Shown here in pieces: positions 17,406 through 32,569 of a stretch of 38,097 nt of DNA (positions within the stretch are counted from its first letter, which is position 1; every line of letters begins with the position of its first letter). The stretch spans positions 1 to 38,097 of the forward strand of contig JAFTKC010000005.1 in the NCBI GenBank assembly GCA_017456055.1, given 5' to 3'. The DNA is from Clostridia bacterium (GTDB lineage Bacteria; Bacillota; Clostridia; Christensenellales; Borkfalkiaceae). A program made the translations under genes and the position numbers. The notes under the pieces are model-generated. The model was not told the origin of the DNA, made no database searches, and saw only the letters and a list, made by a program, of their open reading frames with translations.

Positions 17406-19961
17406 ATGGAAAAATTAGTTCTAATTGACGGAAACAGTTTAATAAACAGAGCGTTTTACGCTATGCCTCCGCTTTCTAATAAAGACGGAGTGCCTACCAA
17501 CGCCGTTTACGGCTTTATGAATATGTTTTTTAAGATGCTCTCTGACCTTGAGCCTGAATACGTTGCCGTTGCTTTCGACTTAAAAGCGCCTACTTTTAGG
17601 CATAAAATGTATGCTGACTATAAAGGCACTAGAAAGCCTATGCCAGATGGTCTCCGCCCACAAATTCCACTTTTAAAAGAAGTGCTTGTTTCTATGGGCG
17701 TTAAAATCTTTGAAAAAGAAGGCTACGAGGCGGACGATATTATCGGCACGATTGCAAAAGCCACCGATTTAACCACCATGATTTTCACGGGAGACAAAGA
17801 CTCTTTTCAACTTGTTGACGAGCAAACGGAAGTTCACTTTACCCGTCGTGGAATTACCGACGTAGAGATATTTGACCACAAAAATTTTACCGAAAAAACG
17901 GGGTTAATTCCATCTCAAATTATAGAATTAAAGGCGCTTATGGGGGACTCTTCGGACAATATTCCCGGCATTAGCGGAGTGGGCGAAAAGACGGCTTTGG
18001 GGCTACTTAAAGATTATTTTGACCTTGACGGAGTTTATCAAAACGTAGATAAATTAAAAGGCAAGTTAAAAGAAAAAATAGAAAACGGAAAGGAAAGCGC
18101 TTATCTATCTAAAACCTTAGCAACTATTGACGTTAACGCACCTATCGACTGCGACCTAAGCAAGATGAAAATGCCTAAAAAGTTTCCGTACCTAGCAAAG
18201 AAAAAGTTTATGGAACTTGAGTTTAAGGCGCTTTCATCTAAGGATGTTTTTTTAGAGCCAATAGGTGAAGAAGTCGAGATAGAAAAACCTAAAAAAGAGT
18301 GCAAGGTAATTAAGGTTAGCGACCTAAACGAGATAGAAAATCTAGATAAAGATTTAGCCTTTTATTTAGGTAAAAACGCCTTTTATATTTCAAATGGGGA
18401 GCAAGAATATCAAGTAAAATATAGGCTTTCATTATTGGACGATGGTTTTTCCGTCGTTGAAATAATAAACAAAATTAAAGAAATATTTAACTCTAAAAAC
18501 ACGCTTATAACGTATAATGGAAAAGAGTTAAGGCATTTTCTAAAAGATAATGCTAATTTAGAATTAAAAACTAAAGTAGAAGACCTTTCTATTCTAAAAT
18601 ATTTGGTTGATTATTCTGGGGGAGGGGAAACGCCCGAACAAGTTATAGAAAACTATGGGGAAAGTTTAGAAACCCCTGCTTTTGCCATATATAATATTTA
18701 TATAGGCTTAAGGGAAAAACTATATTCTATGCAAGCCGAAAAATTATATTACGACTTAGAACTTCCACTCTCAACCGTATTATATGAAATGGAAGTTTCG
18801 GGCTTTAAGGTAGAAAAGGAAAAACTTTTTGAGGCTGGGGAAGAATTTAAAAAGGAACTTGCTCTTTTAGAGTCTAGAATAAAGGAACTTGCAGGCATTA
18901 GTGATATAAACATCAATTCGCCTATTCAACTTGGCGAACTCTTGTTTGAAAAACTTAAAATCGGCAAGGGAAAAAAGACCAAAAGGGGGTATTCGACTTC
19001 GGCAGACGTTCTAGAAGCGCTTGAAGACGCGCACCCAATAGTAAAACTTATTCTAGAATATAGGCGTATTCAAAAATTAAACTCTACTTACGTAGAGGGG
19101 CTAAAGCCACTTATAGATAATGCAACGGGGCTTATTAAGACGTCGTTTAATCAAACGGTCACGTCTACTGGTAGGCTTTCGAGCAAAGAGCCAAACTTAC
19201 AAAATATTCCTGTTAAAGACGATTTAGGTAAAGAGTTAAGAAAGGTTTTTGTGCCAAAGAGTCAAGATAGAATTTTAATTTCTGCCGACTATTCGCAAAT
19301 AGAACTAAGGCTTTTAGCGGCTTTTTCTAACTGCAAGGCGCTAGTTGACGGATATAAGATGGGTAAGGACGTTCATAGAATAACGGCTAGCAAGGTGTTT
19401 AAAACTCCACTTGACCAGGTGACGGACAAGCAAAGAAGTAGCGCAAAGGCAGTTAATTTTGGCATAATTTACGGAATAAGTGAGTACGGACTTGCTAAAA
19501 ACATTAAGGTTTCGCCTTTTGAAGCAAGAGAGTATATAAACGCATATTTTACTGAATACCCTGAAGTTAAAAAGTATATGGACGAGAACGTCGCTTTCGC
19601 TAAAAAGGAAGGATATGCGAAAACTATTCTAGGTAGAAGAAGATATATTAAAGAGTTAAATTCTTCTAACTTCAATCTTCGTCAGTTTGGGGAAAGGGCG
19701 GCTATGAATATGCCACTTCAAGGAAGTAGCGCAGATATTATTAAACTCGCTATGCTAGGCGTTAGTAGAAGATTAAAAGAAGAAAATCTAAAGTCTGAGT
19801 TAATACTTCAAGTTCACGACGAACTTATTATAGACGCTTTCGTTTCGGAAAAAGAACAGGTTAGAAAAATTCTTGTAGAAGAAATGGAAGGGGCTGTTAG
19901 TTTAAGCGTGGATTTAACCGTTAGCGTGGGCGAGGGAAAAACTTGGTTTGATACTAAATAA
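17406..19961 (+). CDS. polA: DNA polymerase I
   Basis: An 851-residue PolA from the chosen start. N-terminal 5'-3' exonuclease: LVLIDGNSLINRAFYAMP, GYEADDIIGT, FTGDKDSFQLV and ALMGDSSDNIPG. The middle 3'-5' exonuclease fold is present, but the DTET metal site is replaced by a LAFYLGK strand, so proofreading is probably lost, as in several Firmicutes PolA. Polymerase motifs: A DYSQIELRLLAAFS, B RSSAKAVNFGIIYGISEYG and C LQVHDELI. I chose ATG 17406 because AAAAAGG is 5 bases upstream and the protein then begins like its family; an ATG at 17382 has AAGG only 2 bases away. It acts in Okazaki fragment maturation and repair. coaE follows after one base. Confidence 0.95.
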   Translation: MEKLVLIDGNSLINRAFYAMPPLSNKDGVPTNAVYGFMNMFFKMLSDLEPEYVAVAFDLKAPTFRHKMYADYKGTRKPMPDGLRPQIPLLKEVLVSMGVKIFEKEGYEADDIIGTIAKATDLTTMIFTGDKDSFQLVDEQTEVHFTRRGITDVEIFDHKNFTEKTGLIPSQIIELKALMGDSSDNIPGISGVGEKTALGLLKDYFDLDGVYQNVDKLKGKLKEKIENGKESAYLSKTLATIDVNAPIDCDLSKMKMPKKFPYLAKKKFMELEFKALSSKDVFLEPIGEEVEIEKPKKECKVIKVSDLNEIENLDKDLAFYLGKNAFYISNGEQEYQVKYRLSLLDDGFSVVEIINKIKEIFNSKNTLITYNGKELRHFLKDNANLELKTKVEDLSILKYLVDYSGGGETPEQVIENYGESLETPAFAIYNIYIGLREKLYSMQAEKLYYDLELPLSTVLYEMEVSGFKVEKEKLFEAGEEFKKELALLESRIKELAGISDININSPIQLGELLFEKLKIGKGKKTKRGYSTSADVLEALEDAHPIVKLILEYRRIQKLNSTYVEGLKPLIDNATGLIKTSFNQTVTSTGRLSSKEPNLQNIPVKDDLGKELRKVFVPKSQDRILISADYSQIELRLLAAFSNCKALVDGYKMGKDVHRITASKVFKTPLDQVTDKQRSSAKAVNFGIIYGISEYGLAKNIKVSPFEAREYINAYFTEYPEVKKYMDENVAFAKKEGYAKTILGRRRYIKELNSSNFNLRQFGERAAMNMPLQGSSADIIKLAMLGVSRRLKEENLKSELILQVHDELIIDAFVSEKEQVRKILVEEMEGAVSLSVDLTVSVGEGKTWFDTK

Positions 19962-21240: not shown

Positions 21241-21272
21241 AAAAGTAGTTCGTTTGAACTACTTTTATTTTT
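21241..21272. terminator. Bidirectional terminator
   Basis: Stem AAAAGTAGTTC / GAACTACTTTT with a GTTT loop, overlapping the stop codon of veg. It serves the convergent XRE and veg genes. Confidence 0.88.
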
Positions 21273-21504
21273 CTACGAGTTTTACTTTTCCGCACATATA
21301 CTCTGAGTATGAGTAGGTGGTTTTGCCCCTAAAATTTTTGTCCGTAGGGCTTACGGTGAACAGGGCGGGGTAGACTCCAACGAGTTTTCCCGAAAAACTC
21401 ACGTACTTGTTTCTGCCGAGATTAACCCTAACGTCTACTTCCTTTTCTCGCATTTTTTCTATAGTGGCTTTTACTTGACTTAAACTGCAATTATTTTTTA
21501 TCAT
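21265..21504 (-). CDS. veg: Veg-like protein
   Basis: A 79-residue protein of the Veg family (DUF1021): LSQVKATIEKMREKEVDVRV, then NLGRNKYVSFSGKLVGVYPALFTV and TTYSYSEYMCGKVKLV. Veg is a small SH3-like protein conserved in Firmicutes and linked in Bacillus to biofilm control and spore outgrowth. It lies 36 bases downstream of the acidic zinc-ribbon gene. No Shine-Dalgarno precedes the ATG; a TAATAAT box ends 6 bases upstream, so a leaderless transcript is possible, or translation depends on the upstream gene. Confidence 0.85.
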   Translation of the reverse strand: MIKNNCSLSQVKATIEKMREKEVDVRVNLGRNKYVSFSGKLVGVYPALFTVSPTDKNFRGKTTYSYSEYMCGKVKLVEK

Positions 21505-21540
21505 GCATTGATTATTACCGTAAAAGTGAAATTTATACCA

Positions 21541-22038
21541 CTAAAACTCTTCTTCGTCGTCCTCTTCGTCTTCTTCCTCTTCCTCGTCGTCCTCTTCAAA
21601 GTCTGCTTGGTCAACTTCCGGAATATCAAAATCGTCTTCTTCCTCTTCTTCGTGGATAAACTCTTCCTCCTCTTCCTCGTCGTCAAAGAGTTCGTCTCCC
21701 TCTTCTTCGATAAGTTTAGAGAGAGATAACAATTCTTCTGAATCTTCTTCCTCTTCTTCGTCGTCCATATATTCTTTCCACTTGTCGTCTGATTCTTCTT
21801 GTTCTTTTTCTTCTAACTCTAACGCTTTAAGGCAACGTTCACAATATTTTTCGCCTGGCTTAACGTAATTTTGATTACATCTTGGGCACAAATCAAAGTT
21901 TTCTTCCACCTCTTCTTCGTCCACTGCGAAAATTAGTTGAGGACCTTTTTTTAGTTCTGCCTTACAAACGTCGCAGTATTCTTCGCCTTCTAGAATATAA
22001 TTTAGTTCGCATCTAGGGCATAAAACGTATTTTGGCAT
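21541..22038 (-). CDS. Double zinc-ribbon protein with a very acidic C-terminal tail
   Basis: A 165-residue protein I cannot assign to a named family. Two zinc ribbons occupy residues ~1-72: LCPRCELNYILEGEEYCDVC and LCPRCNQNYVKPGEKYCERC, repeats of the pattern CPRCxxNY-x8-YCxxC. The rest is almost all Glu and Asp in long runs, with a few short hydrophobic islands (LLSLSKLIEEEG, FDIPEVDQADF) that could be docking motifs. The tail recalls the acidic region of the RNA polymerase delta subunit, but only in charge. It is first in the minus-strand pair with veg and has its own promoter. A role in nucleic-acid or RNA polymerase binding is only a guess. Confidence 0.7.
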   Translation of the reverse strand: MPKYVLCPRCELNYILEGEEYCDVCKAELKKGPQLIFAVDEEEVEENFDLCPRCNQNYVKPGEKYCERCLKALELEEKEQEESDDKWKEYMDDEEEEEDSEELLSLSKLIEEEGDELFDDEEEEEEFIHEEEEEDDFDIPEVDQADFEEDDEEEEEDEEDDEEEF

Positions 22039-22105
22039 ATATAAACTCCATAAATATAATTACTTTATCTTAGGCGAGATTTTATTTTTCTCTCGCTTGG
22101 TGTAT

Positions 22106-22134
22106 ATTATATCTATATGAAGATGTTTTGTAAA
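22106..22134 (-). promoter_or_regulatory. Promoter of the acidic zinc-ribbon gene
   Basis: On the minus strand: TTTACA (22134-22129), 17-bp spacer, TATAAT (22111-22106). The leader of about 60 bases can form a hairpin GCGAGA / TCTCGC (22074-22096). Confidence 0.75.
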
Positions 22135-22182
22135 CTGTTTTTATGTCTTTTTTTATAAATTTTTTACTTTTTTTTGCCTTTT

Positions 22183-22941
22183 TTACACTTTTTCTAAAAG
22201 CATCTTGTCGGCGACGAGCGCTATAAATTCGCCGTTGGTGGGTTTGTCTTGCCCAACGTACGCGCGAACTCCTAGAATATTATTGATGCTTTCTATTCTG
22301 CCTCTATTCCAAGCGACTTCTATTGCGTGGCGAATAGCCCTTTCCACCTTGCTTGCAGTGGTTTGGTATTTTTGTCCTATCATTGGATAAAGTTTTTTAG
22401 TTATGTTGTTTATAATCTCAGGATCTTCTACTGCTAGTCGAACGCCCTCTCTTAAAAAAGAATAGCCTTTGATGTGCGGTGGTATTCCCACGTTGATAAA
22501 AATCTTGCTTATTTTTTCCTCTAAAGACATATCTCTAACTCCTGAAACGTAGGGAAGTGCCTTTTCGCTCTTTTGTTCTTCTAGCGCTTTCATCCTTTCT
22601 TTTAGGATAGAAAACTTATAAGGTTTTGCTAAAAAGTAAGACGCGCCGAGAGAAACGGCTTTGCTTACCACTTCTTCTCTAGTTAAAGCGCTAAGTACGA
22701 TAATTTTGGTTTTAAGGTTTAACTCTCTTAGTTTTTCAATAACTCTAAGTCCGTCGTATCCTAAAAGAACTAATCCGGTAATTAGAAAATCAGGCTTTCT
22801 TTCGGCGAGTGGAGTTAAAGCGGAGATGCCGTCGGTAGACGAACCGATTACTTCGTACTCTCCGTCTTCATTAAACTTTTTCGTTAGTTCGTCAACAGAT
22901 TCTTTGGTGTCTTGTAAAATAAACACAGTCTTTTTTAGCAT
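22183..22941 (-). CDS. spo0A: Spo0A-like response regulator with a degenerate receiver
   Basis: A 252-residue protein. The C-terminal DNA-binding domain is clearly Spo0A: GIPPHIKGYSFLREGVRLAV, KYQTTASKVERAIRHAIEVA, then NRGRIESI and KPTNGEFIALVADKMLLE. The N-terminal receiver keeps the fold and the conserved Lys in SYFLAKPY and Ser in IIVLSAL, but the phosphoacceptor site reads KPDFLITGLVLLGYDGL: Gly56 stands where Spo0A has Asp56. The acidic pair that binds Mg2+ is reduced to Gln10-Asp11. Phosphorelay activation is therefore unlikely. AGGAGA sits 6 bases before the ATG. It is divergent from a CofE-like gene across a 334-base control region. Confidence 0.9.
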   Translation of the reverse strand: MLKKTVFILQDTKESVDELTKKFNEDGEYEVIGSSTDGISALTPLAERKPDFLITGLVLLGYDGLRVIEKLRELNLKTKIIVLSALTREEVVSKAVSLGASYFLAKPYKFSILKERMKALEEQKSEKALPYVSGVRDMSLEEKISKIFINVGIPPHIKGYSFLREGVRLAVEDPEIINNITKKLYPMIGQKYQTTASKVERAIRHAIEVAWNRGRIESINNILGVRAYVGQDKPTNGEFIALVADKMLLEKV

Positions 22942-23275
22942 AGCAATCTCCTAAAATTATTTCGTTTTCTTTTATTTTACTACAAAAAACCCCACGTTTA
23001 CAAGTAAAAATAGGGTAATAGAGCACGAAATTTAAATATAAATGTTCAAATATAGGGAAAAATGTCGAAACTGTGTTCAAAACTCAATTTTACGGGGTGA
23101 AAAACGTTCAAATATAAAATATTTTTTAGAAAATTTGGCGTCTAGGACAAAACGTATAAACCACTTGGTATATAGGTATAATAAAAATATATATAATATA
23201 GGTTAAAAAAGTTGTTGACAACAACAAAAAAAAAGTATAAAATTCTAATGTAAAAAAATTATAGAGGATAATATT
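22942..23275. promoter_or_regulatory. spo0A / CofE-like divergent control region with phased repeats
   Basis: No gene lies in this A/T-rich gap. GTTCAAA occurs at 23044, 23075 and 23106, exactly 31 bp apart each time; the outer two extend to GTTCAAATATA. A Spo0A-box-like TGTCGAA is at 23063-23069, between the first two. On the minus strand the repeats read TTTGAAC, resembling -35 elements of spo0A promoters, but no single convincing -10 could be fixed. Confidence 0.55.
23211..23243 (+). promoter_or_regulatory. Promoter of the CofE-like gene with a palindrome at -35
   Basis: TTGACA (23215-23220), 17-bp spacer, TAAAAT (23238-23243). The -35 box lies in a 15-bp palindrome GTTGTTG-A-CAACAAC (23211-23225), a possible operator. 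Confidence 0.65.
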
Positions 23276-24448
23276 ATGGATTATCAAGGAACAATATCAA
23301 GAGGTGTTAGAGCGCCGATAATAAAAAAGGGTGACGACCTTGTTAAAATTACTGCCGATTGCGTTGTAAACGCATCGAAAGAAGGTGGTTTTCCATTAAA
23401 TGATAAGGACGTTGTTGCCGTGACCGAAGCCGTTTTAGCACGTTCTCAAGGAAACTACGCTACTATCGACCAAATTGCTGAAGACGTTAAAGAGAAGTTT
23501 GGCGACGAGACGGTGGGCTTGGTTTTCCCGATTTTATCCAGAAACCGTTTTTCTAAAATTTTGCAGGGAATTTCTAGGGGGGTTAAAAAGTTAATCGTTC
23601 AACTCTCTTATCCTGGCGACGAAGTGGGGAATAAATTTATTTCCGAAGAGCAAATTATGGAAAAGGGTATAAATCCTTATACCGACGTATTTACGGGCAA
23701 AGAATTCCACGAAGTATTTGGGGACGTTAGACACACCTTTACCGGTGTTGACTACATTGAGTTTTATGAAAAGACGGGTAATTGCGAAGTTATTTTAGCA
23801 AACAACCCTTGCGAGATTTTAAAGCACACTAAATTCGTTATAAACGCTGATATTCACACTAGAAAAATGACCAAGAGAAGACTATTCAACGGCGGTGCAG
23901 AAAAGGTTGTTTCTCTAGACGAGATATTGAACAAGAGTGTAAACGGATCGGGCTACAACGCAGAATACGGCGTTTTAGGTAGCAACCTTGCAACTAACGA
24001 TAGCGTTAAACTCTTCCCAAGAGACGCAAAAAAATTCGTTGAAGATTTGCAAAAGGAACTCTTTAATAGGACGGGCAAAACCATTGAGTGTATGGTTTAC
24101 GGCGACGGTGCGTTTAAGGACCCCGTTGGTGGTATTTGGGAACTTGCAGACCCTGTTGCTTCACCTGCTTTCACCGACGGACTTAAGGGAAAGCCAAATG
24201 AAATTAAATTAAAGTATCTCGCTGATAACGATTTGGCGTCACTTTCTGGCGAAGACGCAGTTAACGCGATGAAAGAGATGATAAAAAATAAAGAGGCTGA
24301 CCTAGTTAACAACGATAAGAGTTTGGGAACTACGCCAAGACAATTAACCGACCTTCTCGCATCACTTGCCGATTTAACGAGTGGTAGTGGGGATAAGGGA
24401 ACGCCTATTATTCTAATTCAAAATTACTTTAAGAACTTTGCAATGTAA
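23276..24448 (+). CDS. CofE-like protein (coenzyme F420-0:L-glutamate ligase family)
   Basis: A 390-residue cytosolic protein resembling the CofE fold: RAPIIKKGDDLVKITADCV at the start, then KDVVAVTEAVLARSQGNYAT, and DPVGGIWELADPVASPAF later. In F420 producers CofE adds glutamate to F420-0 using GTP. No other F420 gene is in the window, and Clostridia with this homologue generally lack the cofactor, so a different amide-forming role is likely. GAGGA lies 8 bases before the ATG. It stands alone between its promoter and a strong terminator. It is longer than the ~250-residue archaeal enzyme. Confidence 0.7.
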   Translation: MDYQGTISRGVRAPIIKKGDDLVKITADCVVNASKEGGFPLNDKDVVAVTEAVLARSQGNYATIDQIAEDVKEKFGDETVGLVFPILSRNRFSKILQGISRGVKKLIVQLSYPGDEVGNKFISEEQIMEKGINPYTDVFTGKEFHEVFGDVRHTFTGVDYIEFYEKTGNCEVILANNPCEILKHTKFVINADIHTRKMTKRRLFNGGAEKVVSLDEILNKSVNGSGYNAEYGVLGSNLATNDSVKLFPRDAKKFVEDLQKELFNRTGKTIECMVYGDGAFKDPVGGIWELADPVASPAFTDGLKGKPNEIKLKYLADNDLASLSGEDAVNAMKEMIKNKEADLVNNDKSLGTTPRQLTDLLASLADLTSGSGDKGTPIILIQNYFKNFAM

Positions 24449-24506: not shown

Positions 24507-25457
24507 TTAAGCAACCGTGATAGTCATTTCTCTTTTTAGGTTTGCAGACCCCGTCCCTTTATGTGGAGTTGATTCTCCCTCACGCATATTAGTCCAAGTA
24601 TCCCAAGTAATATCAAACCATTTTCCATAGACGGTCACTTTGGTAGTGCCTGCTTTTAAGCCCTTAAGAGCCATTTCTTCTTTATCATAAGTGACGATGC
24701 TCTCGTCTTCAATAACTACTGAGTCGATTACAGGTTCGTAGTAGATTAGATTTGGTCCGTATTGAACTCTAATGTTTTCAAAGTTTACTTGTCCGTTTAG
24801 TGGAACGGTGTACACCGTGTAGAAGTTAGTGTTTGCGTAGAAAGATTCGGTGTCGTAATTGGTTGGTTCACCAGGCATAAAGTAAAAACCTAAGTGGTTA
24901 TTCCAGTGTTCGAAATAAAAAAGCATTTCTTCCGATTTAACTTCTTCAATGCCGTTAGTATAAACTGCCTTAAACCTATAAACGCAACCTCTTGCTACAA
25001 AGTGTAGGTCAAAGCCTCTGCCTGAAGATCGTAGCGAAACCTCAACTTCTTTTTGGTGGCTTGCCTCGTACGTTAAATACCATCCGTCAAGTTTAGGAAC
25101 TTTAACTTCAACGAAGATTGTGTCGCCTATATTAAATGCTTTTACGCCATTTAAGTTAGAACACCAAACTTCCATAACGGGCTTTGCCTTAGCGTAAAGG
25201 TTAAGGTCTCCTTCAAGGGCTATGGTATCAATTGGATTTCCGTTTTCATCAACCCAACTTTCAAACTCTAAAAGTTCTTCATTAAACTCGTAGGTTGGAG
25301 TGAAGGTTTCGCTGCCTTTTACTTGTTCGGAATATAATAGTTTATCGCCAAGATAATAGTTAACCGTATATTCTTTTGCGCAGCCTGAAAAGATAGGTGC
25401 AACTAGCATAAACGCTAAAATCAAGCAAGATATACGTCTTATAAAAGTTTTTTTCAT
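24507..25457 (-). CDS. Lipoprotein, tandem paralogue 3 (last in the operon)
   Basis: A 316-residue predicted lipoprotein: signal peptide MKKTFIRRISCLILAFMLVA, lipobox FSGC with Cys26. Residues ~29-95 look like a Listeria-Bacteroides (Flg_new/InlB B-type) repeat, with VNYYLGDKLLYSEQVKG, then FESWVDENGNPI and DLNLYAKAKP. The middle domain is unassigned and contains HLGFYFMPGEPTNYD. The C-terminal VVIEDESIVTYDKEEMALKG plus LKAGTTKVTVYGKW is a Big2-like immunoglobulin fold. It is nearly the same as the next upstream copy in the signal peptide and C-terminal parts and differs most in the middle. Probably surface-exposed; ligand unknown. Confidence 0.8.
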   Translation of the reverse strand: MKKTFIRRISCLILAFMLVAPIFSGCAKEYTVNYYLGDKLLYSEQVKGSETFTPTYEFNEELLEFESWVDENGNPIDTIALEGDLNLYAKAKPVMEVWCSNLNGVKAFNIGDTIFVEVKVPKLDGWYLTYEASHQKEVEVSLRSSGRGFDLHFVARGCVYRFKAVYTNGIEEVKSEEMLFYFEHWNNHLGFYFMPGEPTNYDTESFYANTNFYTVYTVPLNGQVNFENIRVQYGPNLIYYEPVIDSVVIEDESIVTYDKEEMALKGLKAGTTKVTVYGKWFDITWDTWTNMREGESTPHKGTGSANLKREMTITVA

Positions 25458-25473
25458 ATTTTCCCCTTAAGTA

Positions 25474-26430
25474 TCATTTAACCGTAATGGTCATTTCTCT
25501 TTTTAGATTAGCAGAACCCGTTCCGTCCTTTACCATTGGTGGTTGTTCGTATTCTCGAACGTTGGTCCACGTATCCCATCTAATATCAAACCACTTTCCG
25601 TAGACGGTCACTTTGGTAGTTCCCGCTTTTAAGCCCTTTAGAGCCATTTCTTCTTTATCATAGGTGACTATACTTTCGTCCTCAATAACTACCGTTTCAA
25701 TTTCAGGATCGTAGTATATTAGGCTTGGACCAAATTGGATTCTAAGATTCTCAAATTTTACTTGTCCGTTTAGTGGAACGGTATATTCCTTGTAGTAGTT
25801 AGTATTTGCATAGAAAGCAGTGGTATCGTAATTGGTCGGTTCGCCAGGCATAAAGTAAAAGCCTAGGTGCTTATTCCAATGCTCAAAGTAGATTATCATT
25901 TCCTCGGATTTTACCACTTCAATGCCGTTAGTATAAACTGCCTTAAATCTATAAGTGCATCCTTCGGACGTAAGATAAAGGTCAAAACCCTTGCCAGACG
26001 CCCTTTGAGTGACTTGAACTTTGTCTGGAAAGTTTGCTTCGTACGTCAAATACCATCCGTCAATTTTTGGAACTTTAACTTCAACGAAGACGGTGTCGCC
26101 CGTATCAAAAGACTTCACGTGGTCTCCGTTTGAGCACCAAACTTCTACAACGGGTTTTGCCTCAGCGTAAACGTTAAGGTCGCCGTTAAGAGTTATATTT
26201 TCAATAGGATTTCCGTTTTGGTCTACCCAGCCTCTGAACTCGTAAAGTTCTTCACTAAACTCGTAGGTTGGAGTGAATGCTTCGCTATTTTTTACTTGCT
26301 CGGAATATAATAGTTTGTCGCCTAAATAATAGTTAACCGTATATTCTTTTGCGCAGCCTGAAAAGATAGGTGCAACTAGCGTAAACGCTAAAATCAAGCA
26401 AGATATACGTCTTATGAAAGTTTTTTTCAT
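25474..26430 (-). CDS. Lipoprotein, tandem paralogue 2
   Basis: A 318-residue lipoprotein with the same architecture: signal peptide with Cys26 in FSGC, InlB-type repeat (FRGWVDQNGNPI), middle domain with HLGFYFMPGEPTNYD, and Big2-like end. The first ~44 residues match the downstream copy almost exactly at protein and DNA level, with only a few changes, as do ~40 residues around VVIEDESIVTYDKEEMALKG. Residues ~100-150 (PKIDGWYLTYEANFPDKVQV and after) vary. The 16-base gaps on either side are nearly identical, showing a recent tandem duplication. Confidence 0.8.
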   Translation of the reverse strand: MKKTFIRRISCLILAFTLVAPIFSGCAKEYTVNYYLGDKLLYSEQVKNSEAFTPTYEFSEELYEFRGWVDQNGNPIENITLNGDLNVYAEAKPVVEVWCSNGDHVKSFDTGDTVFVEVKVPKIDGWYLTYEANFPDKVQVTQRASGKGFDLYLTSEGCTYRFKAVYTNGIEVVKSEEMIIYFEHWNKHLGFYFMPGEPTNYDTTAFYANTNYYKEYTVPLNGQVKFENLRIQFGPSLIYYDPEIETVVIEDESIVTYDKEEMALKGLKAGTTKVTVYGKWFDIRWDTWTNVREYEQPPMVKDGTGSANLKREMTITVK

Positions 26431-26446
26431 ATTTTCCCCTTAAGTA

Positions 26447-27415
26447 TCATTTAACCGTAATGGTCATTTCTCTAGTTAATCCCTCAGAGCCCGAGCCTTT
26501 CTTTGGTGAACTTGGGTCGTTCCAAGGTAAATTATCGTAAGATGCTTCTCCGCCGGTGATGGTTTTGCCGTGGAAACTATACCATCTTCCGTATACGGTC
26601 ACTTTAGTAGTTCCCGCCTTTAAGCCCACGAAGGCTTGCGCCTCTTTATCGTATGCCAAAATGCTTTCGTCCTCGATTTTAACTGCTTCAACGTAGGCGT
26701 CTCTAAATATTAGATTGCCCTTTCTCATTCTAACGTCTTCAAAAGCAACTCTGCCGTTTAGTGGAACGGTGTATTCTCTATAAATATCGGTCATAGCGTA
26801 GTGTGCGTTATCGTCGTAAACGGTAGGCTCACCAGGCATAAAATAGAAAGACATGTGCGCGTCCCAATGATAACACTCAAAGCGTTGCGTGGCAGTAATA
26901 GATTCAAAGCCGTTTGAGTAGGTGACGGTGACTAAATTATTGGTGTGACCAATAAAGTAGAACTCAACACCCCTTTTAACTTCCGTGCCGATAAGGTCTT
27001 CAGGTTTATCTGATTCCCAAGAAATGCTCCATCCTTCAAGTTCTGGTTTTTTAATTTCCATTAAAACTCTAACGCCCGTATCACCGACGTAGTTTTTGCC
27101 TTGAATTCCGTTAACTAGTAAAATTAGTTGCGGAGTAGCGCTTGCGTAAACGTTAACGTCTTCTTTTGGAGTAATGGTTGTAAGGGGAAGACCTAATTCA
27201 TCCGTCCAACCATTAAAGGTGAAGTATTCTTCAGTAAATTCATAAGAAGAAAGGTCGTACTCTTCGCCCTTTTTTACTTCTGCAATGTATAGAATTTTGT
27301 CGTTTAAATAGTAGTTTACCTTAACGGTGTTTGAACAGCCGACAAAGGAAAAAATTGAACATAGCGAGATGATTGCTAAAGTTAAACTGATAATTTTTTT
27401 AATGTGTTTTCTCAT
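26447..27415 (-). CDS. Lipoprotein, tandem paralogue 1 (divergent copy)
   Basis: A 322-residue lipoprotein, signal peptide with lipobox FVGC (Cys27). It shares the layout of the next two genes (VNYYLNDKILYIAEVKKG, FNGWTDELGLPL, MSFYFMPGEPTVYD, VKIEDESILAYDKEAQAFVG, TREMTITVK) but is much more diverged, so it is the older member. The conserved FYFMPGEPT(N/V)YD and the REMTITV end define a small family I cannot name. It follows hpt after 19 bases and may be cotranscribed with tilS and hpt. Confidence 0.8.
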   Translation of the reverse strand: MRKHIKKIISLTLAIISLCSIFSFVGCSNTVKVNYYLNDKILYIAEVKKGEEYDLSSYEFTEEYFTFNGWTDELGLPLTTITPKEDVNVYASATPQLILLVNGIQGKNYVGDTGVRVLMEIKKPELEGWSISWESDKPEDLIGTEVKRGVEFYFIGHTNNLVTVTYSNGFESITATQRFECYHWDAHMSFYFMPGEPTVYDDNAHYAMTDIYREYTVPLNGRVAFEDVRMRKGNLIFRDAYVEAVKIEDESILAYDKEAQAFVGLKAGTTKVTVYGRWYSFHGKTITGGEASYDNLPWNDPSSPKKGSGSEGLTREMTITVK

Positions 27416-31039: not shown

Positions 31040-32569
31040 CTAAAAGTGATGAAAAACATCAAATTTTTCTTCCGTAAAATTGGTCTTTTTTATATAAACG
31101 TTCTTAACAACTCTTGTTTTGTTGTAAAAAATTGTATTTTGATAAAAGAGAAAGCCCTGACTTGTTTCGTCAGGACTTTTTGTTTTTTGATACTTATAAA
31201 AGATTTCTATTTTGTTTTCATATAAAATAATTTTTTCAACAAGTAAATTTATTAGCCTTTTTGCTTCTTTTTTAAGAGCAGATTTAATGTAAGCGATAAT
31301 ATCTTCTTTTGAAAGAGATACTTTTGTTTGTGCTTCTTCGTGCAAGATTTGTTCTTTTATCAACGATAGTTGACCTTCTAATTCGTCAAGCCTGCTTTTT
31401 GTCATATCAGAGAAGATGCCACGCTCCATTGCTAATATTAGATTATTTATAGATTTCTCTATATCGGCTTTTTGATTGGTTAATAGTGTAAGTCGTGTAT
31501 TTGTTCTAAACTTTTCTTTGTTTAGTTCTACAATTTTGTCAACAAGTTTATTTAAGTCATTTTTATTAAAAGCATCAATAATAGAATTTACAACAGTTTC
31601 TTCTATTATTTCTTTTTTAACAGAGCCTTTTTTGCATTTATGAGTAGTTTTTTTTCTAGAGCATTTGTAATATCTAAAAACATCACCAGAACGGGCAGTT
31701 CCTGCATCTGCACTCATTGTTTTACCACAATATCCACAAAATAATTTGTTTTTTAATATGTAAGTAACGTCTGCATTATGCGTGCCGTATTTGTTTTTAT
31801 ACTTTTTTTCTTGAACTGTTAAAAATGTTTCTTTTGATATTATAGCTGGAAAAATATTGTCAACTATTTCACCGTTACATTCAAAACTACCTGTGTATTT
31901 CTCGTTTTCAAGCATATGATGGATAGTGTTTACGGCAAAAGGCTTACCCCTATGATATATTCCTTTTGCGGTTAAATTTTCAATGATGGTTTTAATATAT
32001 GTTCCGTGCAAATATTCGTCGTAAATATATTTAACGATATTGGCTTTTTCTTCGTCAAGAACAACTTTTTTTCCGTCTTTTTTATAACCAAAAAGCAAAT
32101 ATCCACCCATATAGTTTCCTTTGGTGCGTAATTCTCTCATTCCACGTTTAACTTTTTGGGATAGTTCGGCAGAATAGTATTCAGCCATACCTTCAAGCAA
32201 TGATTCTAAAATAATGCCTTCAGGTGTTTCGGGAATATTTTCCATTGCGGATAAAAGTTTTATGCCATTATCTCGCAGGGTTTTCTTGTGCATAGCAGTT
32301 TCATATTTGTTACGGGAGAAACGGTCAAGTTTATAAACAAGAACGTAATCCCACGCCTGTTTTGCACTATCTTTGAGCATACGTTGAAAATCTTTACGAT
32401 TGTCATTTGTTCCCGTCATAGCACGGTCAATATAAGTATCGACAATAACTATATCGTTACGGGCTGCAAATTCGTTACAAACGTGAATTTGACCTTCAAT
32501 AGACTGCTCTGTTTGTCGTTCGCTAGAATATCTAGCATAAATTACAGCAGTTTTTTTGTCTTTCTTCAT
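31040..32569 (-). CDS. Large serine recombinase (integrase)
   Basis: A 509-residue site-specific recombinase. The N-terminal resolvase-type catalytic domain begins AVIYARYSSERQTEQSIEGQ with nucleophile Ser15, then DRAMTGTNDNRKDFQRML and YKLDRFSRNKYETA. The recombinase domain follows (KGIYHRGKPFAVNTIHHML), then a zinc ribbon with FCGYCGKTM and KCSRKKTTHKC. A coiled-coil region (~350-420) and a short C-terminal tail complete it. Such enzymes integrate and excise elements by double-strand cleavage at att sites and need a directionality factor for excision. AAAGGAG is 7 bases before the ATG. The start overlaps a small upstream gene by 38 bases. Confidence 0.95.
   Translation of the reverse strand: MKKDKKTAVIYARYSSERQTEQSIEGQIHVCNEFAARNDIVIVDTYIDRAMTGTNDNRKDFQRMLKDSAKQAWDYVLVYKLDRFSRNKYETAMHKKTLRDNGIKLLSAMENIPETPEGIILESLLEGMAEYYSAELSQKVKRGMRELRTKGNYMGGYLLFGYKKDGKKVVLDEEKANIVKYIYDEYLHGTYIKTIIENLTAKGIYHRGKPFAVNTIHHMLENEKYTGSFECNGEIVDNIFPAIISKETFLTVQEKKYKNKYGTHNADVTYILKNKLFCGYCGKTMSADAGTARSGDVFRYYKCSRKKTTHKCKKGSVKKEIIEETVVNSIIDAFNKNDLNKLVDKIVELNKEKFRTNTRLTLLTNQKADIEKSINNLILAMERGIFSDMTKSRLDELEGQLSLIKEQILHEEAQTKVSLSKEDIIAYIKSALKKEAKRLINLLVEKIILYENKIEIFYKYQKTKSPDETSQGFLFYQNTIFYNKTRVVKNVYIKKTNFTEEKFDVFHHF

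Follow-up and report, generated by a model that had tools for sequence, protein, structure and literature searches.

The window, by which we mean the whole 38,097-nucleotide stretch of DNA analysed here, carries a spo0A gene on its reverse strand, at exactly the coordinates that the original prediction had assigned to it (Table 1). The encoded protein matches the Spo0A equivalog profile TIGR02875 over its whole length with 244.1 bits (cut-off 200), and its C-terminal half matches 1fc3 and 1lq1, with the recognition helix conserved. Across 27 sequences this DNA-binding half is near-invariant, with most columns fixed, which together with the TIGR02875 and PF08769 scores bears out its earlier description as that of a strongly conserved Spo0A. 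The genome to which the window belongs (G000) is a 1.385 Mb draft in 26 contigs, estimated to be 93.7% complete. A genome search returned a single full Spo0A match, and neither that search nor a census of response regulators found a second, intact Spo0A in this genome.

Table 1. Features of the spo0A region of the window (feature; positions; strand; evidence or remark).
spo0A CDS, sole Spo0A found in genome	22183..22941	-	252 aa, ATG start
receiver (pseudo-receiver) domain, residues 6-117	22591..22926	-	Pfam Response_reg, 60.4 bits
Spo0A_C DNA-binding domain, residues 144-246	22204..22512	-	Pfam PF08769, 128.4 bits
codon 56, GGA (Gly), place of the phosphoacceptor	22774..22776	-	alignment with a solved Spo0A receiver and with family and order receivers
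codons 10-11, Gln-Asp, place of the Mg-binding acidic pair	22909..22914	-	receiver alignment
putative sigma-A-type spo0A promoter (TTGTAA, 18 nt, TAAAAT)	22974..23003	-	9/12 consensus matches, weak alone
perfect 0A box TTCGACA (opposite strand TGTCGAA), putative autoregulatory site	23063..23069	-	128 bp upstream of ATG
zinc-ribbon protein with acidic tail, conserved downstream neighbour of spo0A	21541..22038	-	cluster of 52 ORFs, 11 in genus
Veg, conserved downstream neighbour of spo0A	21265..21504	-	Pfam VEG, 49.1 bits

The gene order spo0A, zinc-ribbon/acidic-tail protein, veg (window 21265-22941; for example loci L132-L138) recurs in several genera, the zinc-ribbon assignment of the middle frame coming from double zinc ribbon matches that are weak and do not reach the cut-off. 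In relatives, veg is often followed by a large protein that appears SipL-like (DUF3794-LysM) by eye; the window has no such frame after veg. Divergent from spo0A lies a frame for a 390-residue F420-0:gamma-glutamyl ligase-like protein (23276-24448; Pfam score 177 bits, profile of 218 positions), and beyond it are three adjacent ORFs of 316-322 aa (24507-27415), two of which have a weak, sub-cut-off match to the Listeria-Bacteroides repeat. A large serine recombinase (31040-32569) near a tRNA-Met gene points to a possible mobile element.

The receiver was aligned by phmmer to 9phz_E, a solved Spo0A receiver that we take from its letters to be that of B. subtilis. The alignment contains a single gap over residues 4-113, after residue 78, and pairs G56 with the phosphoacceptor aspartate and Q10-D11 with the Asp-Asp pair, as had been proposed for both sites from the sequence. 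The pocket of the window protein therefore reads Q10 D11 G56 S84 K106; the residue set of a phosphorylatable response regulator is incomplete, and the domain, recognised by its Response_reg match and carrying Gly at 56, is an aspartate-less receiver. A slip of register that would make D51 (in 'KPD') or D63 (in 'YDG') the phosphoacceptor was considered and rejected: both are also Asp at the aligned places of canonical Spo0A, which rules out each of them as a phosphoacceptor that has shifted position. The sequence thus supports a protein that keeps its fold and DNA-binding half and has no Asp at residue 56 to phosphorylate. The accompanying claim that the conserved Lys and the switch Ser/Thr remain holds for the genus, where both are present in 13/13 rows, but not for the family as a whole, in which Lys is found in 104/113 receivers and Ser/Thr in 74/113.

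To place the window protein among its relatives, Spo0A loci were retrieved and aligned from a family sample of 121 genomes in 18 genera, drawn from a larger group. The sample gave 117 receiver rows, four of which were dropped because the receiver was too short, leaving 113; these come from 111 genomes, two of which (G047 and G060) contribute two rows each. The four rows L033 to L036 were excluded from the family and sister-family counts; L034 stems from the same genome as G006, and L035 from the same genome as G211. In-frame stops were kept as a star; they occur in L007 (G081, a member of the genus), where a TAA lies between the two Spo0A domains and reflects decay or error, and near the C-terminus of the single G211 gene represented by both L035 and L171, reflecting decay or sequencing error. 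Several genomes also have, beside their full Spo0A, ORFs that match only its DNA-binding half, many of them about 130 aa long (for example in L129 and L130).

Residue 56 is Asp in only 29 of the 113 family receivers and Glu in 18, the remainder being mostly Gly, Ser or Asn; the acidic pair is intact in six, and a complete pocket (two acids, Asp, Ser/Thr and Lys) is present in two. The 70 Spo0As read from sister families of the order have Asp in 64 cases and Glu in six, with a complete pocket in 55. Omitting rows with an in-frame stop gives Asp56 in 29/112 of the family and 63/69 of the sister families. Within the genus of the window, 22 genomes divide into 12 with Glu, eight with Gly and two with Asp (Gly 6, Glu 6 and Asp 1 in the first 13 genomes; Glu 6, Gly 2 and Asp 1 in a further nine), and loss of the aspartate is therefore a property of a clade rather than of one genome, the question that the original prediction had put to related genomes. 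Asp56 is retained in g2 (10/10 rows), g17 (6/6), g7 (9/11), and in g15 and g18, each represented by one row. The type of pocket splits the family, one half having mostly Gln-Asp/Glu and the other mostly Glu-Ser/Asn/Gly. Outside the family, Glu56 was read in 6/6 genomes of genus g45 and in 4/4 of genus g36, from a third family; two additional g36 genomes of the sample have no full Spo0A among the matches listed. A phosphomimetic Glu was rejected as the general answer, as only 18 of the 84 Asp-less family receivers carry it.

In a tree of 151 Spo0A sequences from which the pocket columns had been removed, the 113 family rows form one clade (SH-aLRT 92). Over this tree, sister families included, 13 changes between Asp and not-Asp are counted, by a method blind to gain versus loss and on a topology with 48 of its 148 inner branches open and some long branches. 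As for the order of events, we infer that the pocket decayed first and that the Asp was lost repeatedly afterwards.

The remaining response regulators of these genomes have kept their aspartate. Three response regulators were found in the window genome, Spo0A included. The 22 genus loci contain 18 rows of other receivers, representing 17 genes (L002 and L150 are the same gene), and Asp is present in all 18, with the full pocket visible in 17; in the eighteenth, L167, the first acid falls outside the aligned piece. A lineage-wide loss of Asp from response regulators was rejected on these rows, which, as far as alignment can tell, make the loss specific to Spo0A.

Kinases were chosen by frame length and position alone (in the genus, 34 of 93 HATPase_c rows were taken). 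Judged in this way, two of the six HATPase_c matches in the window genome are histidine kinases, each lying less than 4 kb from one of the two other response regulators, and no orphan kinase was found among the six, which answers the earlier call to check the genome for one. Cross-talk from the two paired kinases to Spo0A is possible. Among 14 genus genomes, three kinase-like frames have no nearby regulator (G121, 374 aa, under cut-off; G122, 200 aa; G129, 396 aa). The genus member G123 (85% complete, Glu56) has five HATPase_c matches, no kinase-like frame and Spo0A as its only response regulator. Spo0A, again with Glu56, is likewise the only response regulator of G199 (genus g45; 0.9 Mb, 99% complete), whose four HATPase_c matches correspond in size to GyrB, ParE, an anti-sigma factor and MutL, with no histidine kinase recognised.

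Loss of kinases and loss of Asp do not, however, follow each other as a strict rule. The sister-family genomes G204, G162 and G141 have a complete pocket and no unpaired frame of ordinary kinase size (G162 does possess hybrid kinases), and G217 keeps a full pocket with Asp and has no kinase among the matches listed (three of four HATPase_c); absence of an orphan kinase alone is therefore no predictor of Asp loss. G199 (L232) and G217 (L221) are near-complete genomes of 0.9-1.1 Mb from family f28 in which, with no histidine kinase among the matches listed and Spo0A as sole response regulator, SpoIIAB-sized, SigF-type and SpoVA genes are present. In a separate observation, the Asp-keeping spo0A of L072 (G007:C20) has immediately upstream of it, at about 17899-19885, a hybrid histidine kinase in which one receiver is clear and a second one weak; G025, which also keeps Asp, has no hybrid kinase at this place, so the G007 case is not used as an argument.

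The DNA targets of Spo0A can be followed upstream of its own gene. The putative promoter motif GTAAAAT is exact in nine of 13 aligned genus upstream regions and has one mismatch in the other four, and a perfect 0A box occurs less than 330 bp upstream of spo0A in 11 of 13 genus genes. Family-wide, the 0A 7-mer lies less than 250 bp upstream of spo0A in 72 of 111 cases, against 4.1 expected from dinucleotide shuffles, with three rows skipped whose start was not located, which had fewer than 200 bases upstream, or which contained N. The excess is seen both where the Asp is gone (51/82, 2.7 expected) and where it is kept (21/29, 1.4 expected), as well as in other families (35/69, 2.1 expected); the same box precedes 21 of 414 mechanically listed other ORFs in these loci. 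The boxes kept in Asp-less genes suggest that binding specificity, and probably autoregulation, outlive the phosphoacceptor. Since they also occur where Asp is kept, they are evidence of conserved targets, not of a new mechanism. At other expected targets the signal is sparse. Upstream of spoIIG in 11 genomes, a perfect 0A box within 260 bp was seen in G052 only, at -251, and the one-mismatch TTCTACA near spoIIG in G000, G024, G039, G072 and G199 is suggestive only. No perfect 0A box was found at spoIIA, where the three starts examined have one-mismatch sites only; two of the five starts chosen, in G024 and G123, were not spoIIAA by translation. Candidate 0A boxes were also noted in sigma loci of G199, G115, G204 and G128.

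The receiver itself looks to be under purifying selection after loss of the Asp, rather than drifting freely. The two closest Asp-less pairs give receiver dN/dS ratios of 0.080 (L018/L019) and 0.073 (L071/L075), and the other listed Asp-less pairs remain below 0.6, each higher than its DNA-binding half, with many dS values near saturation. Close Asp-keeping pairs have lower receiver ratios (0.03-0.06), so some relaxation of the Asp-less receivers is likely. Where the DNA-binding halves are 0.75-0.85 identical, the receivers of Asp-less proteins have an identity of 0.349, those of family members with Asp 0.377 and those of sister families with Asp 0.375.

With no phosphoacceptor in Spo0A and no spare kinase found in the window genome, the regulator must be switched by other means. 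The reading we prefer, with a probability of roughly 55%, is that the window gene encodes a true Spo0A with a pseudo-receiver, independent of phosphorylation, whose activity is most likely set by its own amount. Dedicated kinases would have vanished in small genomes, after which the Asp would have been lost many times, being replaced by a phosphomimetic Glu in some lineages and by Gly in the species of the window. Spo0A would then dimerise and bind 0A boxes without phosphate, and its amount, governed by a promoter that bears its own binding site, would become the signal, so that entry into sporulation would depend on a dose threshold replacing the kinase signal. Two published points constrain this scheme: excerpts of PMC4395418 report that Asp-to-Glu alone is insufficient for constitutive activity of Spo0A, which calls for a contribution from other changes, and the portions of PMC12090719 on which we draw model binding of B. 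subtilis Spo0A to the spo0A boxes as mainly repressive. The original prediction had left control by level, by a ligand or by protein contact side by side; the 0A boxes upstream of spo0A favour level, but a ligand or partner could equally set activity.

The main competing explanation is that the pseudo-receiver senses a small ligand or a partner protein that switches Spo0A on or off, and we regard it as a serious, though distinctly less probable, option. It would account for a receiver that remains selected after Asp loss, and for a receiver core (P50, D63, G64, G99, K106 and P107) that shows no variation across 27 sequences; excerpts of the review PMC12632262 describe pseudo-receivers controlled by ligands or partners, and the zinc-ribbon/acidic protein and Veg, encoded downstream of spo0A in several genera, could be candidate partners. 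On the other hand, no conserved new pocket was recognised, residue 56 varies between Gly, Glu and Asp within one genus, unlike a specific binding site, and these neighbours are missing from the layouts shown for g3, g7, g9 and g10.

It is also conceivable, if rather unlikely, that sporulation is being given up and that Spo0A persists as a relic or as regulator of a minor regulon. The sporulation gene set speaks to this directly. SpoIVA was found in 116 of the 121 family genomes and exceeds its cut-off in 101, including the window genome (620 bits). In that genome SigE scores over its cut-offs, SigG, SigK and SpoIIGA have best matches under the equivalog cut-offs (SigK is over a subfamily cut-off), and SpoVAC/EB has one match; this last was found in eight of nine family genomes in the order sample and in 117 of 151 genomes overall. 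A SigF-type frame, none over the curated cut-off of TIGR02885, was present in 10 of 12 genus genomes searched, the exceptions, among the matches listed, being G000 and G006; in G024 it adjoins a SpoIIAB that is over cut-off. No SpoIIAB-sized frame was found in G000, where all six HATPase_c matches were inspected, or in G006 among the matches listed (three of seven weak HATPase_c), and SpoVAC/EB was not found in G006 among the matches listed. In G109, G115 and G089 the sigF-type frame lies about 2 kb or less from a contig end, so an assembly gap could explain a missing SigF. None of the 121 family genomes gave a match to alpha/beta SASPs (PF00269); of the 151 genomes of the order sample, 40 did; genomes with a complete Spo0A pocket, such as those of f3, lack them too, so SASP loss is not tied to Spo0A. 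There is thus a large group of genomes that have spore genes (SpoVAC/EB in 117/151) without the usual DNA-protecting proteins of spores.

The missing SigF and SpoIIAB of G000 and G006, the missing SpoVAC/EB of G006 and the absence of SASPs across the family would fit decay, as would the in-frame TAA of G081, the nine of 121 family genomes with no full- or half-length Spo0A or with fragments only (among the matches listed, with the window protein as query), and a receiver identity slightly below that of sister families (0.349 vs 0.375). Against decay stand receiver dN/dS ratios well below 1, the near-invariant DNA-binding half, the kept 0A boxes, the wide occurrence of SpoIVA, SigF-type frames and SpoVA, and the SASP-less sister genomes with complete pockets. 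The original suggestion of a lineage that had lost or rewired sporulation is answered in part: loss is not supported for the genus as a whole, with genes of SigE, SigG, SigK, SpoIIGA, SpoIVA and SpoVA type in the window genome, and rewiring fits better. Of the sigma factors that were to be looked for, SigE is over cut-off in the window genome, SigG and SigK are best matches under their equivalog cut-offs, and SigF was not found in it, with SigF-type frames present in relatives. Judging from the gene content, spore formation by this lineage is plausible and, if spores form, their DNA-protecting proteins must differ from SASPs.

Another residue of Spo0A, such as D11 or one of the Ser/Thr side chains, might take the phosphate from one of the paired kinases or from a Ser/Thr kinase, but this seems very improbable. 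The window protein does have D11 and S84, and its genome two paired kinases; in some members of the genus, however, Pro, Gly, Ala or Asn stands in place of D11, and the second acid is gone from whole genera. A sequencing or assembly error at codon 56 of this 26-contig draft can be dismissed almost entirely, as independent genus genomes also have Gly or Glu there, encoded by diverse codons (GGA, GGG, GGT and GAA, with GAC for Asp).

Aspartate-less receivers and Spo0A are each well known already. With the canonical Spo0A of B. subtilis, Clostridium acetobutylicum and Clostridioides difficile the window protein shares its two domains, a TIGR02875 score and the DNA-recognition helix, along with a 0A box before its own gene and genes of SigE, SigG and SigK type in its genome; it differs in having no phosphoacceptor Asp, a broken acidic pair and no orphan kinase that we could find. 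In the part of Davidson et al. consulted (PMC6136694), 47 of 48 spore formers had at least one orphan kinase. With the pseudo-receivers ChxR, HP1043, FrzS, RitR and JadR1 it shares a receiver recognised by sequence, loss of the phosphoacceptor or the acidic pair, and a DNA-binding output. Such receivers often carry Glu at the place of Asp (excerpts of PMC4395418 and PMC12632262) and act phosphate-free or via ligands or partners (excerpts of PMC12632262). Reading the window protein by eye, we found no Cys, and a redox switch of the RitR type is therefore out. Unlike in the known pseudo-receivers, the loss here strikes the master regulator of sporulation, repeatedly and in most genera of a family, with Asp persisting in some. 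The excerpted text of PMC4395418 mentions Spo0A only for laboratory Asp-to-Glu changes, a word count of PMC12632262 gave no occurrence of Spo0A, and our literature search, covering parts of open-licence PMC texts, found no report of a natural Spo0A without a phosphoacceptor. A recent review (PMC11210211) describes Spo0A as the entry point to sporulation in every endospore former, and phosphorylation of a conserved Asp as the step that activates it.

Epulopiscium sp. type B, for which we draw on excerpts of one study (PMC3416734), offers the best comparison for sporulation that has been remodelled. It shares with the lineage described here a retained core of sporulation genes from whose late set some are absent, and it is reported there to lack homologues of the Spo0A kinases known from clostridia. 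Its Spo0A, in contrast, keeps the phosphorylation site that the window protein has lost; and it has SASP genes and one of nine DPA genes, whereas the present lineage retains SpoVA and gave no SASP match.

Taken beyond the window protein, a phosphorylation-independent Spo0A controlled by its amount leads to a broader proposal, to which we give a little less than even odds: several small-genome lineages of Clostridia may have discarded the kinase input, and the dose of a phosphate-independent Spo0A may start an otherwise-kept, SASP-free sporulation, even in genomes without any histidine kinase. Spo0A would have become phosphate-independent by way of Glu in some cases and by going straight to neutral residues in others. 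The graded series that the receivers provide, from Asp in a broken pocket through Glu to Gly, Ser or Asn, offers material for studying how response regulators become independent of phosphate. Kinase control of sporulation cannot be deduced from finding spo0A in a metagenome bin. A family that has Spo0A and its DNA target along with the majority of the tested spore genes, with hardly any free kinase in the genomes checked, but in which the phosphoacceptor is gone from most genera, is a natural experiment on what phosphorylation of Spo0A is for.
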